Below are positions 21,909-29,010 of a stretch of 64,000 nucleotides of DNA, piece by piece (position 1 is the stretch's first letter; each line of letters begins with the position of its first letter). The notes beneath the pieces are model-generated. The model was given only the letters and a program-made list of their open reading frames with translations, was not told the origin of the DNA and did not search any database. The stretch comes from Aliirhizobium wenxiniae (GTDB lineage: Bacteria > Pseudomonadota > Alphaproteobacteria > Rhizobiales > Rhizobiaceae): assembly GCF_014201355.1 (NCBI RefSeq), contig NZ_JACHEG010000006.1:235905-299904 (forward strand), written 5' to 3'. Both the position numbers and the translations under genes were made by a program.

Positions 21909-23416
21909 GCGAAGATCCCGTGGCAGAACCATCGGTGATCCCCGGTTTCGGGATCGACACCATCGCCGGCCCGAAAAATCCAGAGCCGCTCGCCGCTTTC
22001 ATCCTCGATGACGAAATAGTCCCGCACTGCCTCCATCTCGGCATCGCGCTGCCACCACTCGCCGAAAATCCGCTCTGGCCCGTCGGCGCATTTGACCTTT
22101 CGGCGTTTGCCGCGCCAGGTAATCGAAGCTGGCGGGTGGTCAGGCATGAGGGCGATGGCGGTGATCGGCTCCGGTCGCGGCAGAAGCCGGACCGGCCGGC
22201 GCCAGTGGCCAACCCATGCAACGGTGAGCGGATCGGAGGCCGCGGCAATCCGCTGAACCGAGCGTTCAGGTACGTCTGATGCAACTGGGGCCATGCGATA
22301 GACCCGTTGGCCGCGATTGCCATAAACGTCGATCAAGGGAGTAACATCGGTGATCTCGTCCTCGATCAGCGACGAGACCTTCTGAACATCACTGAGCGGC
22401 TCTGCCATGACGGCGACGAGCGTCAATTTTTCGATGCCGAAACCGGGTTCGATCTTTTCCGTCCGATCCCGAAACAGTTTGGTCAGCCAGGCGACATCGC
22501 GAGCCGGTTTCGCGGTGCCTGCTCGAATGGCTTGCCTCGTGCCATCGACCTTTTCGACGATGAGATCGGCGCGACGGACACCGAGACCACGTTTCTGCAG
22601 TTCTTCGATCAATTGCACGACGAGGCGGCCGACATATTTGTTGATCGTTTCTGCCGCCCCGATCGGTTCGGCAAAAGCACGAGAAACCTCGATCAACTCT
22701 GGTGTGCGGATCGGATCGATCGGTTCGCCAATCCGGCCGAACATCTGGTCGAGCCGCCGGCCGATCTCCGGGCCGAAGCGCAGGGTCAGGGGAGCGCGGG
22801 GTGTGTTGGCAAGCTCACCGATGGCCTGAAAGCCGAGCGTGCGCAGATCACCGACGACCTTTTCCGGCAACCGCAGCAATGTGATCGGCAGTCTTTCCAT
22901 CGCTGCAGCTGTCTTGGCCTTCGGTACGATGACCGTTTCACGGCTGATCGCCCGTGCGCAGGCATGGGCCGCGCCCCAGGTATCGGCGATCGCAACGCGC
23001 GCCGTCAGTTTTTTAGCCAGAAACTGATTGGCGATCTTGGTGATCATCGGCAATTCGCCGCCCTGTAGGTGGTCTGCGCCTTCGGTGTCGAGAACAATGC
23101 CATTGAGGCCATCGACCGCGACGATCGGGGAATATTGGGTCAAAGCCCAAAGCGTGATCCGCTCAAGTGCTGCTGCATCAAGATGAGGCTCGGCATCAAC
23201 CATCATCAGCCCGCGAAACAGAGCCTGGGCCTTTGCCGCCGGCATGCCGACGCGAAGGCCGGATTTTCGCGCAGCTGCGTCCACCGAAGAGACCCAGCGT
23301 TTCGGCCCGCTTTTGGCGATCACGGCAATAGCCTGCTCAGCCGGAATGGACGGATCGTCGCGCCGGATCCGATCGGTCGGCAGATCCGGTAGATAGATCG
23401 ATACGACCCTGCTCAT
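21905..23416 (-). CDS. imuB: ImuB, Y-family polymerase-like mutasome hub
   Basis: 503 residues. Start at the ATG at 23416 ([20 protein letters not shown]), inside the end of imuA. It has the Y-family fold ([39 protein letters not shown]) but not the catalytic DxD..DE acidic pattern, as is normal for ImuB. ImuB recruits DnaE2 and the beta clamp for SOS mutagenesis. No deletion or frame break. Confidence 0.95.
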
Positions 23417-24113
23417 CACACGCCCTCACGAGAAACTCAGCACACTCACCCGCTTTCACGCGCATCAACTCAAGAAACCACTTTGCCCGTCCGACTCCTG
23501 GCACCGGCAGTTCTTCCGACGGCATGACGCTCACCCTCCACCGTGTCGTCGAGGCCGTCGGTTGGCCAAAATCACTGGCCTCAGTCTGGCGTCGCCAGCG
23601 CCGGACCGCGAGCGCCATCGTGCCTGTGCGCTCAGCCGCAAGCTGCAGGCGCCGTGAACCGACCATCGGCAGGCGCACAAGTTCGCCGACGACTGCCCCA
23701 AGCCCCCCGAAGGAGAGTCCCTCCTCCATATTCGCCAGCACATCCTCCTCCTTGTCGGACTCGACAAAGATCACCCGGTCGGGATGAAGTCCGACCTGCG
23801 TCAGAGCCGGAAAGAAAAGGTCCGGTCGCGTCAGACACCAGACGATCGGCCCTTTGGTGCGCGCTGCGATGCCGGCGGCAAACAGTGCAGTTGCGGCTCC
23901 ATCGACGGTCCCTGCACCACCACCGGCAAACTCATGAAGGGCGCCATGGCTGAGACCGCCACCGGGCAGAACCGCGTCGATCTCAGGGACACCGAATGCT
24001 AGACAGCCGGCTTTTCGGGTCGACGTGCCCTCCAGTGCCGAGATCCGCTCACGCAGATCGGCGATCACGTCTGAAGCACCATCTGACATCCCTGGAGCGC
24101 GGGCAGCAGTCAT
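23337..24113 (-). CDS. imuA: ImuA, SulA/RecA-like mutasome protein
   Basis: 258 residues. RecA-fold core: FGVPEIDAVLPGGGLSHGAL (a degenerate P loop), ..IVWCLTRPDLFFPALTQVGL, VIFVESDKEEDVLANMEEGL. ImuA accompanies ImuB and DnaE2 in alphaproteobacterial SOS mutasomes. It overlaps imuB by 80 bases and follows a LexA box at 24175. Confidence 0.94.
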   Translation of the reverse strand: MTAARAPGMSDGASDVIADLRERISALEGTSTRKAGCLAFGVPEIDAVLPGGGLSHGALHEFAGGGAGTVDGAATALFAAGIAARTKGPIVWCLTRPDLFFPALTQVGLHPDRVIFVESDKEEDVLANMEEGLSFGGLGAVVGELVRLPMVGSRRLQLAAERTGTMALAVRRWRRQTEASDFGQPTASTTRWRVSVMPSEELPVPGVGRAKWFLELMRVKAGECAEFLVRACDEQGRIDLSTGSADRSDPARRSVHSG

Positions 24114-24174
24114 CGTTCACGGCTCCCTTCAAGGTCGTGTTGCCAGGCCGACATCATGTCGTGCAGAAGTATTC

Positions 24175-24189
24175 GTTCACTATCTGTTC
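24175..24189. promoter_or_regulatory. LexA (SOS) box of imuA-imuB-dnaE2
   Basis: GTTC-ACTATCT-GTTC, an exact GTTC-N7-GTTC direct repeat, the alphaproteobacterial LexA site. It lies 61 bases upstream of the imuA ATG. Confidence 0.92.
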
Positions 24190-24426
24190 TGATGGCGGAG
24201 AAGAGTCAAGCGGTGGAAGGCTAAGGAATATAATCCTGACATTAGGAATTCGAAAAATTCCCATAGGATTCAGAAATATAGCTCCACCGAAAAAATTTCG
24301 GAAACTTTCTCCGCCACCACTTTCCACGCGCGAGAGTTGCTTCGGTGCTTCGCGTCCATCCATGCGTGCTCGCCGATACGCCTGCAGCCACTGATGGAGC
24401 CGATATTATTATCGCCAGACGGATGG

Positions 24427-24630
24427 TCAGATAGCTATCGGCCCGATTATCCGCTTCAGGTCTGTCGGCGTGCGCACTCCGAAGAGCCACCAGTTTACCA
24501 GTTCCCGAGCAGCAGCCTCGGCTTCGGGGCCGCTGATGCCAAGCTGTTGTTCCTGGCACAGTTCATCGAGAACCCCGCGCAACATCGTCAGATCGTCGGA
24601 ACCCAGCACATCAAACGACGAGAAAACCAT
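24427..24630 (-). CDS. small conserved hypothetical protein
   Basis: 67 residues: MVFSSFDVLGSDDLTMLRGV, then ELCQEQQLGISGPEAEAAARELVNWWLFGVR. I recall small rhizobial proteins with the same AAARELVNWWLFGVR ending. Soluble, helical. Divergent spacing suggests its own promoter. Function unknown. Confidence 0.75.
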   Translation of the reverse strand: MVFSSFDVLGSDDLTMLRGVLDELCQEQQLGISGPEAEAAARELVNWWLFGVRTPTDLKRIIGPIAI

Positions 24631-24850
24631 ATCCTTTGCCCCAGCCTAACTCATTTGTACTGAAGCGGACGTGAGTGCATAGATGCTAAATCTAGCAATC
24701 GTCGTTTGTATCCGCCCACATGTTCAATTCCCGGGGTGCTGCGTCATCATCGGTGGAGACATGGCCGGCTCGCGACGCTGGTAGAGTCTATGAATGGCGT
24801 TTAGAACTATCCTTGGCCAAGCTGCTGTTACTCTCGGATGGATCTGTTTT

Positions 24851-25156
24851 GTGTCACAGACAACGGACTTTGTTGCTGAGTTGATCTACGCTGCAAATAC
24901 GATCGATGAGGTCACGCCGTTTGAGCGCAGACGGCTGCTGGAGAGGGGCATGGCGATCGTTGCAGCCCAGCGAGAGCTCCTGGAGCTGCGTGGCAATATT
25001 GTTCCGCTCCAACCGGATTTCATGCGGGAGATGGGCAGGCTGGCGGAGATCGCCGGTCGGAAGAATGGCATCTCGCTCCTGATCGGGTCAGGCATGCTCA
25101 TGCTCGCAGATGAGATCCGAAGACTGCGCGTCCTCTCCAAGGCTGCCGAGGCCTAA
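24851..25156 (+). CDS. hypothetical helical protein
   Basis: Start set at the GTG at 24851 (VSQTTDFVAELIYAANTIDE), which resembles rhizobial plasmid proteins beginning (M)xKTTxFVxELIxAAN. About 101 residues, all helical with RRLLERGMAIVAAQRELLE and a final ADEIRRLRVLSKAAEA. The longer frame from 24794 adds a hydrophobic stretch with no homologue that I recall. Not named. Confidence 0.6.
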   Translation: MSQTTDFVAELIYAANTIDEVTPFERRRLLERGMAIVAAQRELLELRGNIVPLQPDFMREMGRLAEIAGRKNGISLLIGSGMLMLADEIRRLRVLSKAAEA

Positions 25157-25217
25157 GGTCTCCGCCTATTGAAACGATGCGGACATGCTGGTTCACTGCA
25201 GCCGAGGAGGAGCCGAC

Positions 25218-25991
25218 ATGTGCAACCTTTATCGCATGGAAGACAAGGACTGGGTCTCGCAGTGGGCTCAGGATGCCGAGCGGCTGATCAACCCGATGCC
25301 GGCCTATCAGATGAATCCGGATCAGATGGGGCCAATCCTTCGCAACACTGCCGACGGAGGCAAGCAGTTCGTCCACGCCCGATGGGGGCTACCCTCCCCG
25401 CGCTTTGCGCTTGAAAAGGCAGCAAAGACGAAAGCCGATAAACTCACCGCCAAAGGCAAGCCGGCCAACATCGAAGAATTGATCCGCATGGAAGCCGACC
25501 GCGGCACGACCAACGTTCGCAATCTCACATTCCCACACTGGAGGCGATGGTTCGGCATCGAGCATCGATGTATCGTTCCGGTCACCAGCTTTGCCGAGCC
25601 GGACCCGAAAGCCCAAGTGCCGGGCGGCAAGGTCCCGAATGCCTGGTTTGCGCGTGACGCGCAAAAGTCTTTGATGTTCTTTGCCGGCATCCACGTGCCG
25701 CAATGGCAAAGTGTCAGGAAGGTGAAGGACGGACTGACGACCGACGATCTCTATGGTTTCCTGACGACCGATCCGAATGCCTTGGTGAAACCGATCCACG
25801 ATAAAGCGATGCCTGTCCTTCTCCTGACCCAAGAGGAAGTCGATGTCTGGATGCAAGCACCCTGGGATGAGGCAAAGGCGCTTGCCCGGGCACTACCGGC
25901 GGGTGCCCTGATCATCTCGTCGCGTGAGCCCTATGGGTCGTCGATCGTCGCAAAGGACGGAGAGCCGCTCGAGCAGCCAATGCTGCTCTGA
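25218..25991 (+). CDS. SOS response-associated peptidase-type (SRAP/HMCES) protein
   Basis: Start at 25218 after GAGGAGG so that the mature protein begins with Cys2 (MCNLYRMEDKDWV). SRAP proteins use Cys2 to form a thiazolidine link with abasic sites in single-stranded DNA. Conserved surroundings: RTTNVRNLTFPHWRRWFG-like segment (GTTNVRNLTF), RCIVPVTSFAEPDPKAQVPG, and IHDKAMPVLLL with the catalytic His. 257 residues. It sits between the mutasome and dinB, so it is part of a DNA damage block. Confidence 0.93.
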   Translation: MCNLYRMEDKDWVSQWAQDAERLINPMPAYQMNPDQMGPILRNTADGGKQFVHARWGLPSPRFALEKAAKTKADKLTAKGKPANIEELIRMEADRGTTNVRNLTFPHWRRWFGIEHRCIVPVTSFAEPDPKAQVPGGKVPNAWFARDAQKSLMFFAGIHVPQWQSVRKVKDGLTTDDLYGFLTTDPNALVKPIHDKAMPVLLLTQEEVDVWMQAPWDEAKALARALPAGALIISSREPYGSSIVAKDGEPLEQPMLL

Positions 25992-26038
25992 TCGTCGGTG
26001 CCGTATGAACTTGCCATGATTTGACTCTCACCGCGATT

Positions 26039-26053
26039 GTTCTTATTTTGTTC
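26039..26053. promoter_or_regulatory. LexA (SOS) box of dinB operon
   Basis: GTTC-TTATTTT-GTTC, an exact GTTC-N7-GTTC direct repeat, 20 bases before the ATG at 26073 that heads the dinB operon. Confidence 0.9.
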
Positions 26054-26072
26054 TTTTCAATGTGGAGAGGAT

Positions 26073-26517
26073 ATGGACATGAGCTGGCTCAAACTCGACC
26101 CTGCAAAATCGTCGATGTCGTGATTTCCATCTTGCTGTCCAGCATCACTATCTGGAACTGTTTCTACCGCATCTGGAAAGCTTCGACTGGGATATCGCTG
26201 CATTCTACCGGAGCCAGGAGGAGCCGCTGGTCTATTACTTTTCGCCGGGCGCCGCTGATCTGCTTTTCAGGTTCGGCAAGTTCTCTTACGAGCCATGTGG
26301 CCGGCCAGAATCCAACGCAGTTCAATTGCAGGTCGGGACCTCGCTTGCCTACGATACCGCCTGGGTGGAACTGCCCGATGAAACCCGTCCTTATCCGGAA
26401 TTCGATCAGGAGCTCGCGGACGCCGAGGCCGATTACTGGGACACCGTCTGGGGGACGGGCGGCGAATGCGGACCGATCGAAGATGAGCATGATGATCGCC
26501 AGGAGCGTCGTGGGTGA
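26073..26517 (+). pseudogene. conserved hypothetical protein upstream of dinB, frameshifted
   Basis: The ATG at 26073 has GGAGAGG in front and begins MDMSWLKLDP, then runs into a stop. A second frame continues as RRCRDFHLAVQHHYLELFLP, HLESFDWDIAAFYRSQEEPL, ..PDETRPYPEFDQELADAEAD..EHDDRQERRG. Removing one base near 26103 (a G in GACCCTGCAAAA) fuses them. The product is about 146 residues, acidic at the end. It stands between the LexA box and dinB and probably forms an operon with it. Confidence 0.75.
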
Positions 26518-26550
26518 CGCCAGTGCTGACCAGCCGCTGAGATTGCATCG

Positions 26551-27651
26551 ATGTACGCCATGATCTCTCCAGCCACCCGAAAGATTATCCACGTCGACAT
26601 GGATGCCTTTTACGCGTCGGTGGAACAGCGGGATAATCCCGAGCTGCGCGGCAAGCCGCTTGCGGTCGGCGGTGCTGCCGCACGCGGCGTCGTTGCGGCT
26701 GCCAGTTATGAAGCACGGAAATTCGGTGTCCATTCTGCAATGCCTTCGGTCACGGCTGCACGAAAATGCCCTGAGCTGATTTTCGTAAAACCTCGCTTCG
26801 AGGTCTATCGTGCCGTCTCGCAGCAAATCCGGGAAATCTTTGCTGAATACACGCCACTGATCGAGCCGCTGTCGCTCGACGAAGCCTATCTCGACGTGAC
26901 CGAAAATCTCAAAGATATGCCGATTGCGACCGAGATCGCGCTGGAGATCCGAGCGAAGATCAAGGCCGTCACCGGACTGAATGCGTCAGCCGGCATCTCC
27001 TACAACAAGTTTCTGGCCAAGATGGCGTCCGATCTCAACAAGCCGAACGGTCAGGCTGTCATCACACCGAAGAATGGCCCGGCCTTCGTCGAGGCGCTTG
27101 CGGTGAAAAAATTCCATGGTGTCGGGCCGGCCACGGCCGAGAAGATGCATAAACTCGGGATCGAGACAGGTGCAGACTTAAAAGCCCAGTCGCTGCAGTT
27201 CCTTACCCAGCATTTCGGAAAGTCAGGCCCTTACTTCTATGGCATCGCGCGTGGCACCGATGACCGCCAGGTTCGACCTGATCGAGTGCGGAAGTCGGTC
27301 GGCGCTGAAGACACGTTCAGCCGAGATATCGACGATCTCGACCGCGCAACGGGCGAGCTGAAACCGCTTGCAAACAAGGTCTGGACCTATTGCGAGGCCA
27401 AACGCATCTCCGGCAAAACCGTAACGGTGAAGATCAAATATTCGGATTTCACCCAGGCCACCAGAAGCCGAACTGGCGCCCTGCCCTTTTCGAGTGGCCA
27501 GGATGTTCTCGATGCAGCTTCGGAGCTGCTGAAAACGGTCTATCCGTTCAAGCGATCGGTGCGATTACTTGGGGTGACACTTTCATCGCTCACAGGCGCC
27601 CAAGATGATGATAACAGCCAGGAGCAGCCGGAACTGGATTTCAGCATGTAG
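26551..27651 (+). CDS. dinB: DNA polymerase IV (DinB)
   Basis: 366 residues. VDMDAFYASVEQRD and SLDEAYLDVTE carry the catalytic acidic residues. The little-finger region SVGAEDTFSRDIDDLD and a C-terminal clamp-binding peptide QEQPELDFSM are present. Translesion bypass polymerase acting with the beta clamp. Behind the LexA box at 26039 through the small gene before it. The dinB stop is followed within 15 bases by the bidirectional hairpin at 27662. Confidence 0.95.
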   Translation: MYAMISPATRKIIHVDMDAFYASVEQRDNPELRGKPLAVGGAAARGVVAAASYEARKFGVHSAMPSVTAARKCPELIFVKPRFEVYRAVSQQIREIFAEYTPLIEPLSLDEAYLDVTENLKDMPIATEIALEIRAKIKAVTGLNASAGISYNKFLAKMASDLNKPNGQAVITPKNGPAFVEALAVKKFHGVGPATAEKMHKLGIETGADLKAQSLQFLTQHFGKSGPYFYGIARGTDDRQVRPDRVRKSVGAEDTFSRDIDDLDRATGELKPLANKVWTYCEAKRISGKTVTVKIKYSDFTQATRSRTGALPFSSGQDVLDAASELLKTVYPFKRSVRLLGVTLSSLTGAQDDDNSQEQPELDFSM

Positions 27652-27661
27652 GAGAAAACGA

Positions 27662-27697
27662 AAAAGCCTGCCGCGGGAGGAGGAGCGGCAGGCTTTT
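27662..27697. terminator. bidirectional terminator between dinB and the hairpin array
   Basis: Stem AAAGCCTGCCGC / GCGGCAGGCTTT with a 10-base loop, flanked by A5 on one side and T4 on the other. On the plus strand it ends dinB; on the minus strand it is the last hairpin of the array and has the loop TCCTCCTCCC followed by a T run. Confidence 0.8.
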
Positions 27698-27818
27698 CGA
27701 AAAGAACCGAACAGCGACTGGGAGGAGGAGTGCCGCTGTTCACTCAGGCAACCTCGGGAGGAGGAGTGGGTCGCCTGAAATACGAAGCTCTGTGGGGGGA
27801 GGTACATCGCTTCGTTGG
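27662..27818 (-). ncRNA. tandem CUCCUCCUCCC-loop hairpin array (cuckoo/CcsR-like sRNA)
   Basis: Four hairpins in a row on the minus strand: stems CGAAGC/GCTTCG (27783-27814), CAGGC..GCCTG (27745-27777), AACAGCG/CGCTGTT (27710-27740) and the terminator hairpin (27662-27697). Three loops contain CTCCTCCTCCC; the first has ACCTCCCCCC. The loops mimic an anti-Shine-Dalgarno sequence, as in the alphaproteobacterial cuckoo/CcsR/ar14 small RNAs, which often come in tandem and base-pair with ribosome sites or other anti-SD targets. A -10-like TATAAA is at 27829-27824, with no good -35 seen. No open frame fits the region. Confidence 0.78.
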
Positions 27819-27906
27819 GATTGTTTATACAGCTTCCCGCAAAACGAGTTAGATGGCCCGCCGCAGTTCAGCCATGCGTCAAGCGCAGATCTCTAAAGCC
27901 GACTGC

Positions 27907-28254
27907 CTAATTTCGAACCGTTAGCCGCGAAACCGGTCGAAGGCTGTCAGGAACCTGGTCGGTGGGTACCGCTTCCGGATAGCGATAGATTTCGGTGCGC
28001 AGATAGTGAAGCTCGCCAGCCAGATCTGCCTCATCCACCTCGATCCAACAGGATTTGGGCCGCCCCTCGCTGCCGTCCGACCACCGATAACCGCGCGCCT
28101 TGAGGTGGTCCTTCAGATCAAACGGACTGTTTTCGGCAAAGATGCGGACGCGAGATTTCTGGCTGTTGCGATATAGCTCTGCAAATGGAGTGAGGGCATC
28201 ACGATCAGTCTTTCGATCAAGCACTTCGAGCAGGGCGAAACAATCGTCGACCGC
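27907..28254 (-). pseudogene. 3'-5' exonuclease (DnaQ/PolC-like) C-terminal remnant
   Basis: Reads SAVDDCFALLEVLD (motif III region HxAxDD), then LTPFAELYRNSQKSRVRIFA, ENSPFDLKDHLKARGYRWS and a final ..WIEVDEADLAGELHYLRTEI. The arrangement, with the C-terminal NSPFDLKDxLKARGYRWSDGS, is the tail of rhizobial DnaQ-type exonucleases. An in-frame TAG sits just before, so only the end survives. It abuts the hydrolase fragment in a different frame. Confidence 0.85.
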
Positions 28255-28271
28255 GCTCTAGCAAGCCTGGT

Positions 28272-28712
28272 CTGCCATTTCGTGTAGCCGGGGCCCTCAC
28301 CTTCAAAGTAGCGCGTCACCACATTTCTTCCGGCACTGCGTAATGCGCTTTCGTATTGTCGCGTCTGCTCCACACTGACGATCGGATCGGATACCGACGC
28401 TGTCAGAAAAAAAGAGCCATGAGCCCCTTCGACCTGATCTAACGGTGAATATTCTAAAAGTGCTTCAGCGTCGGTACCGCTCGCCGCCCCGAAATATTGT
28501 TCTACCTTATCGGTAACCATCGCCCATGCCAGCGGATTGTTACGCATCTGAAATGGCAGATCCAGGACGGCGCAATCGATAATCGCGGCAGCAAACAAAT
28601 CGGGGTCGCGACACATTGCGAGGGCCGCGATTGTACCGCCAAAGCTCACCCCCTGAATTACGATCCGGCCCGCCTCTGCTGCTCCGGCGCCGCGCATGAG
28701 TGTTGGCAGTGA
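28272..28712 (-). pseudogene. prolyl-oligopeptidase-like alpha/beta hydrolase, internal remnant
   Basis: RIVIQGVSFGGTIAALAMCR contains the nucleophile elbow GxSxGG (Ser), followed by DPDLFAAAIIDCAVLDL and TASVSDPIVSVEQTRQYESA (acid Asp). The final His of S9-type enzymes (DEGHGF) is here GEGPGY, so catalysis is lost. It is the middle part of an open frame (28113-29153) that joins three unrelated fragments. Confidence 0.7.
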
Positions 28713-28841
28713 TCCTGTGCCACCCGTTGTTTCACCAGATCTTGCGCCAACGATAGGAGCCCTCGACCACGTGGAGTGAATCCGCTCATAGCCAGATGTC
28801 CCTGTCTTTGGTATTTGCCTCGATCCACGTCTAGCCTTCCT

Positions 28842-28991
28842 AACCGCTAGCAACTCGAAGCGATTGTTATTCATTCCCGGCTCGCAGCCACTCCTATCGA
28901 AGACTGAACTTCCGTCTACGAAGACAATGAATGCCCATCCTCCTCTCCATGATGCTGCGTTAAACGAGCCGTCGCTATAGATTTGAAGCAT
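28842..28991 (-). pseudogene. RNase HI-like N-terminal remnant
   Basis: Begins at the ATG at 28991: MLQIYSDGSFNAASWRGGWA then FIVFVDGSSV and GMNNNRFELLAV. This is the first part of an RNase H fold with the catalytic Asp (YSDGS) and Glu (RFELLAV). The rest of the domain is missing and the frame passes into the hydrolase fragment. No ribosome site precedes the ATG. Confidence 0.7.
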
Positions 28992-29010
28992 CTTTGACAG
29001 GTCACGAGCA

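Follow-up and report, generated by a model that had tools for sequence, protein, structure and literature searches.

A four-hairpin sRNA gene of the ar14/cuckoo family lies convergent to an accessory dinB in Aliirhizobium wenxiniae

Introduction

The closest described relatives of the locus studied here are small RNAs (sRNAs) from Rhodobacter sphaeroides and Sinorhizobium meliloti. Their hairpins display anti-Shine-Dalgarno (aSD) loops, and the CcsR units of R. sphaeroides carry the CCUCCUCCC motif. The CcsRs are described as separate RNAs that are processed from a transcript made by RpoHI/HII (PMC10253847). For rhizobia, Reinkensmeier et al. (2011; PMC3927594) distinguish a four-hairpin type with CCUCCUCCC-type loops, RFMSmelA099, from a three-hairpin type, RFMSmelA075. 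They propose that both belong to a single family that is present in several copies in each genome and whose microsynteny is fragmented. SmelA099 itself is listed as a 160-nt RNA at 1328175-1328334 on the minus strand of pSymA (deep-sequencing survey, PMC2873474; review table, PMC7143759). For another member, NfeR1, the function of the aSD loops has been shown in S. meliloti, and the regulator LsrB is reported to bind TGCA-N6-GCAT at -72 to -60 and to activate the gene (PMC10746234). According to the review (PMC7143759), Northern blots of S. meliloti reliably showed only one of six NfeR1 copies, so a given copy can be silent.

Here we analyze a stretch of 64,000 nucleotides from Aliirhizobium wenxiniae ("the window"), in which an array of this type had been predicted beside a dinB gene and had been proposed to tie translation to DNA damage. 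We believe that the array is a stand-alone, trans-acting sRNA gene of the four-hairpin ar14/cuckoo type, with a promoter of its own, convergent with dinB, with a last hairpin that is probably bidirectional, and with no SOS switch; the evidence makes this reading very probable.

Results

Four hairpins with aSD loops on the minus strand

27653-27818, minus strand: four-hairpin aSD sRNA gene (ar14/cuckoo, RFMSmelA099 type); match of 192.5 bits to covariance model R1, the window copy being one of the 21 rows behind that model
27783-27814, minus strand: hairpin 0 (H0), loop CCUCCCCCC, the aSD motif with one substitution; from the fold
27745-27777, minus strand: hairpin 1 (H1), loop CCUCCUCCC; from the fold and covariation
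27709-27741, minus strand: hairpin 2 (H2), loop CCUCCUCCC; from the fold and covariation
27661-27698, minus strand: hairpin 3 (H3), loop CCUCCUCCC; from the fold of both strands; by its geometry, the putative intrinsic terminator of the sRNA
27659-27783, minus strand: full-length match of H1-H3 to Rfam ar14 (RF02344), 103 bits, E 6.7e-18

The original prediction described four consecutive hairpins on this strand with two types of loop, and the fold and the motif positions confirm them and their coordinates. Three of the aSD loops are intact (H1-H3) and one is altered (H0). Across the minus strand of the window, CCTCCTCCC occurs three times, as the loops of H1-H3; the plus strand has one copy, at 698. 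A 168-nt stretch of the minus strand folds at -69.4 kcal/mol, versus -39.9 for shuffled sequences (standard deviation 3.7; z -7.96; 0/200 shuffles as good). By analogy with SmelA099, the 5' end of the RNA is predicted to lie near 27818.

The array belongs to a known family and its stems covary

The proposed membership in the ar14/cuckoo family is borne out by a covariance search: the score for RF02344 is above that model's gathering cut-off (58.8 bits), and ar14 is the sole gathering-level Rfam match in the window. The A. wenxiniae genome has five ar14 copies, each above the gathering score. All 57 of the genus genomes that we searched have ar14 above the cut-off, versus none of 14 control genomes. 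The features of RFMSmelA099 are also present. Four adjacent hairpins carry CCUCCUCCC-type loops, three of them exact, and one model finds both SmelA099 and the window array, each abutting a dinB. (That model was built from 21 arrays, including the window's and not including SmelA099.)

Covariation in relatives had been chosen beforehand as a test that could have gone against the prediction, and we found it across 21 arrays. In our alignment A1 (four-hairpin arrays from the same genome, from genus genomes, and from dinB loci), 11 of 41 pairs show changes on both sides and 98.4% of cells are paired. The percentage of pairing, the counts of both-side changes, and the covariation score were each reached by none of 500 shuffles; further pair types were no more numerous than in shuffles (310/500). 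H0 is outside the Rfam ar14 model, yet it is conserved and covaries in relatives: three of its pairs have both-side changes (A1 columns 6-35, 7-34, and 15-26; 21 sequences). H0 is a real part of the array. The A1 covariance model scores its 21 training arrays at 165-197 bits, by construction, and gives 190.5 bits to an array from outside the training set (locus L039), versus 74-97 bits for 27 three-hairpin copies.

Could the array merely terminate two convergent genes, its aSD loops having been kept by gene conversion or by chance? The array does end beside dinB, and some dinB-side copies have decayed (to 51 bits in L036, 35 in L058, and 23 in L078). But the stems covary while the loops stay fixed, the promoter element is conserved and the S. 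meliloti counterpart is transcribed (see below), and the loops of NfeR1 have been shown to function (PMC10746234). We find this explanation scarcely credible.

The counterpart in S. meliloti is a recorded transcript

In S. meliloti 1021, the array model matches NC_003037 at 1328335-1328170 on the minus strand (155.7 bits), which encloses SmelA099. An accessory dinB ORF of 379 amino acids (1327012-1328151, plus strand) ends 18 nt short of the match. Since SmelA099 coincides with the model match beside dinB, transcription of the four-hairpin array next to dinB is on record for this species. The published 5' end is 6 nt past a TATAGT and just ahead of hairpin 0. The prediction was to be abandoned if no minus-strand transcript existed; in this relative, where SmelA099 is the dinB-side array, that question is answered favorably. 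The literature passages that we searched do not mention the dinB beside SmelA099, and the pairing may be reported already.

The array has a conserved promoter element with an LsrB-like box

27824-27829, minus strand: -10-like TATAAA of the putative sRNA promoter, from an alignment of 21 upstream regions
27874-27887, minus strand: LsrB-like box TGCG-N6-GCAT, at roughly -69 to -56 relative to the predicted start

Upstream of 21 arrays, the most strongly conserved block is approximately TGCA-N6-GCATRGCTGCACTGCAGCA, and a -10-like box lies ahead of H0. (We also noticed, by eye, a weak -35-like CTAACT 17 nt upstream of the TATAAA.) GCATRGCT is found upstream of 100 of the 128 hits from our family scan (described below), versus 82 of 5,000 random windows, and TGCR-N6-GCAT upstream of 50 of the 128, versus 92 of 5,000. 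The box in the window departs once from the NfeR1 box, with TGCG for TGCA. Looser LsrB-like patterns are also near 16 of 27 three-hairpin copies, so the box is not specific to the four-hairpin branch. The likeness of the motif and its spacing suggest that LsrB may control the window array, and more broadly that SmelA099-type arrays and NfeR1 share a promoter logic.

No LexA box was found at the array promoter: the best match in 27819-27990 has 6 of 8 letters, and we rejected SOS control of this promoter. With a conserved promoter element of its own that includes an LsrB-like box and no LexA box, SOS control of the array is unsupported.

The array faces an accessory dinB in a mutagenesis island

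23337-28224: mutagenesis island, from an imuA-like ORF to an exonuclease remnant
24175-24189: LexA box within the island
25185-25991: SRAP gene within the island
26039-26053, plus strand: LexA-type box GTTCTTATTTTGTTC (GTTC-N7-GTTC, exact 8/8 match), about 500 bp upstream of dinB
26551-27651, plus strand: accessory dinB (DNA polymerase IV; Pfam IMS and IMS_C), convergent with the sRNA gene
27907-28224, minus strand: C-terminal remnant of a 3'-5' exonuclease gene, upstream of the sRNA gene and co-oriented with it

The accessory dinB is up to 95% identical to those in other genomes of the genus. (The imuA-like ORF was called by its resemblance to annotated plasmid neighbors and has no Pfam match.) Exact LexA boxes lie upstream of both dinB and the imuA-like ORF. 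The window has four exact LexA boxes versus 2.34 expected, which says little alone; dinB loci L036, L037, and L040 have a box identical to GTTCTTATTTTGTTC, and L039 has one that differs from it by a single letter. The small gene between the LexA box and dinB (26021-26563) looks frameshifted, with overlapping ORFs in two frames, and 26326-26517 has no Pfam match.

H3 starts 10 bp past the dinB stop codon at 27651, so the original prediction of a terminator shared with dinB was right as geometry. The run after the H3 stem is only TTTTCGAA on the dinB side, versus TTTTTCGTTTT on the sRNA side. Judging from this geometry, H3 in the plus orientation is probably the terminator of dinB, and thus bidirectional. 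(A simple terminator scan of 26500-29000 on both strands returned no site because it allowed loops of at most 8 nt, and the array's loops are about 10 nt.)

We also considered SRAP as a target of the sRNA from the same locus. The SRAP start at 25218 is preceded by a Shine-Dalgarno sequence, GAGGAGGAG (25193-25220), with 9 nt complementary to the sRNA loops; the duplex energy (-43.4) would put it in third place if it were ranked with the 77 ORFs scanned. Among SRAP starts, the match to the loops is 3-7 nt in the other ten of 11 from array loci, and 4-8 nt in four without arrays. As the 9-nt match is not conserved in homologues, we dropped this candidate.

The pair with dinB is probably inherited, and most arrays lie elsewhere

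We scanned 394 Rhizobiaceae genomes with the array model (E up to 1e-25) and obtained 128 hits in 72 genomes, at 112-198 bits. By a loose count, 124 of the hits have four loop clusters and four have three. (All 128 were counted by pattern rather than individually inspected.) Accessory dinB (E up to 1e-130) is present in 91 of the genomes, at 98 places. In 15 cases an array hit abuts it, with gaps of 5-66 bp and always on opposite strands, so that the two are convergent; the pair that comes next in distance is separated by 12 kb. If placement were uniform, about 0.0002 abutting pairs would be expected, so chance does not account for the link. Shared descent is enough to explain it, and we view the convergence with dinB as inherited synteny, often on plasmids.

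Among 30 dinB loci from the genus, ten have a strong array (at about 1 kb from dinB in one case) and two a decayed one; among 80 dinB loci of named genomes, many from outside Rhizobiaceae, six have a strong array and one a remnant. Twelve plasmid stretches were chosen because they matched, and 11 have the array; the other, pAt of Agrobacterium fabrum C58, has dinB with no array within 2.5 kb. Gene sets like the mutagenesis island are found on conjugative plasmids, including a Ti plasmid, and PLSDB types all six of the chosen plasmids that carry the pair as conjugative (Neorhizobium pNCHU2750c, Rhizobium johnstonii pRlX3, A. fabrum pTiAg57, Sinorhizobium fredii NXT3 pSfreNXT3c, Pararhizobium qamdonense p3, and S. 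mexicanum pEmeITTGR7a). In the five of these that are annotated, a 3'-5' exonuclease or epsilon-subunit gene is present in five, imuA in four, DUF1127 in three, and SRAP in two; dinB is annotated in four, and in p3 only part of dinB was found.

Arrays also have other homes: beside a convergent P-loop NTPase gene (L001, L015, L022, and L032; the Pfam matches of L001 are sub-threshold only), beside minC and a MinD-like gene (L023 and L034; Pfam on L023), and beside a convergent gene that begins like the window's SRAP (L151 and L159). Since these homes can be convergent too, abutting a convergent gene is not special to dinB.

In a tree of 58 arrays (53 different sequences, 263 columns), the home label (dinB or other) changes eight times, versus a mean of 19.1 with shuffled labels (0/500 as low), and well-supported branches force at least three changes. 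A single origin of the dinB home was seen in 0% of 200 bootstrap trees, and we rejected it. Because 21 of the 50 inner branches are unresolved, the tree does not separate capture by a dinB home from escape from one. (These 58 rows were selected by score or by their dinB and do not sample the hits at random; the counts for 128 hits cover the whole scan list. L150, L153, and L154, which are the same places as L032, L001, and L034, were left out of the tree and the 58-row counts, as were L035, which is the window again, L182 and L184, which are near copies of other S. meliloti loci, and the decayed arrays. L038, whose array is about 1 kb from dinB, was labelled other; L179 and L185 were labelled dinB on partial dinB matches.)

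The decayed arrays beside dinB lie at 1355-1493 in L036, 2601-2717 in L058, and 4077-4281 in L078, which suggests that dinB can persist after loss of the array. Two genomes with a dinB-side array have a second array 12-14 kb from dinB (L161 and L162; G439:C2 and G223:C14), and that of L162 follows an exonuclease-like gene. The stretch with the pair in L047 ends in a fragment of a 16S rRNA gene (1-243), so this pair may neighbor an rRNA operon instead of residing on a small plasmid.

These counts bear on the coupling to DNA damage that was originally predicted. If LexA cleavage induces dinB, its transcription could run into the array and interfere with it, or the read-through RNA, a perfect antisense with hairpins that mimic Shine-Dalgarno sites, could sponge the sRNA. 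The exact LexA box upstream of dinB fits this idea, and so do the consistently convergent, closely spaced pairs; the plus-strand run after H3 is short (TTTT), which makes leakage plausible; and plus-strand RNA of the array stretch would form mirror hairpins, moderately above shuffles (z -2.15; 5/200 as good). But the array has its own promoter element with no LexA box, just 15 of the 98 dinB places abut an array, dinB on C58 pAt has no array nearby, and 113 of the 128 hits lie in other homes. We consider an SOS-coupled array very unlikely, and this part of the prediction did not hold up. A more elaborate scenario deserves about as little credence: on conjugative rhizobial plasmids, an SOS mutagenesis island might have fixed a convergent pair of a LexA-controlled dinB and a redox-controlled aSD sRNA, so that SOS read-through antisense with SD-like loops would free the sRNA's targets and DNA damage would reset a brake on translation.

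DUF1127 is a more common neighbor

For 41 of the 128 hits, the 700 nt upstream contain a DUF1127 gene on the same strand (by pattern; one of the 41 looks broken), which makes DUF1127 a more common neighbor than dinB (15/128). The pairing of such arrays with DUF1127 is already known (CIN1). In the 58-row set, DUF1127 is upstream of 24 arrays (12 of 33 dinB homes and 12 of 25 others), versus 0 of 27 three-hairpin copies and 8 of 2,000 random windows. All 11 of the distinct proteins that we scanned match Pfam DUF1127.

This raises the possibility that a DUF1127 (or exonuclease-DUF1127) transcript is the usual precursor of the array, as the ccaF1 transcript is of CcsR1-4, and that the window copy is a remnant whose host gene was lost. 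Besides the frequent DUF1127 neighbors, the exonuclease remnant upstream of the window array would fit. (The remnant is 87% identical over 97 amino acids to the intact protein of L037, which is Pfam RNase_T; the remnant itself has no Pfam match.) Against this, no DUF1127 was found by pattern within 700 nt upstream of the window array. Also, the conserved box and -10 are located downstream of DUF1127 and ahead of the array, and the 5' end of SmelA099 is at that promoter; the array thus does not require co-transcription. Overall, we think that a processed origin is unlikely.

Discussion

If the array is a stand-alone gene, then a sigma70-type promoter of its own would transcribe the sRNA in A. 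wenxiniae (27818-27653, minus strand). By analogy with NfeR1, the LysR-type regulator LsrB probably activates this promoter, in response to LsrB-type stress signals, and the loops would pair with G/A-rich ribosome-binding sites and block translation. The transcript would end at H3, which probably ends the dinB transcript too.

This work ties a little-studied published sRNA, SmelA099, to a recurring neighbor, the accessory dinB, often on plasmids. If the link is functional, then mutagenic repair would be joined to control of translation; if not, it is plain conserved synteny. As S. meliloti 1021 has the same pair, the SOS question is directly addressable with existing genetics.

Among the known systems, the CcsR1-4 locus of R. 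sphaeroides, with ccaF1 (DUF1127), resembles the window array in having four homologous units, and many relatives of the window array have a DUF1127 gene upstream, as in the CIN1/CcsR locus. The window array differs in that it has no DUF1127, and the CcsRs are separate processed RNAs. NfeR1 of S. meliloti (alpha-r14, Smr14C2) shares the aSD loops, the ar14 family, and an LsrB-like box at a similar spacing, but its gene is chromosomal and its 123-nt RNA has three hairpins. SmelA099 (smrA6, SMa6570) of S. meliloti 1021 pSymA is the published counterpart: like the window array, it has four aSD hairpins in about 160 nt, is convergent with an accessory dinB, and has the same layout of -10 and upstream box. 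The stem sequences differ, as does the H0 loop, which is CCUCCCCCC in the window; the window array has an exonuclease remnant upstream. The window array is a further member of a known, published sRNA family, in its four-hairpin ar14/cuckoo branch (RFMSmelA099).
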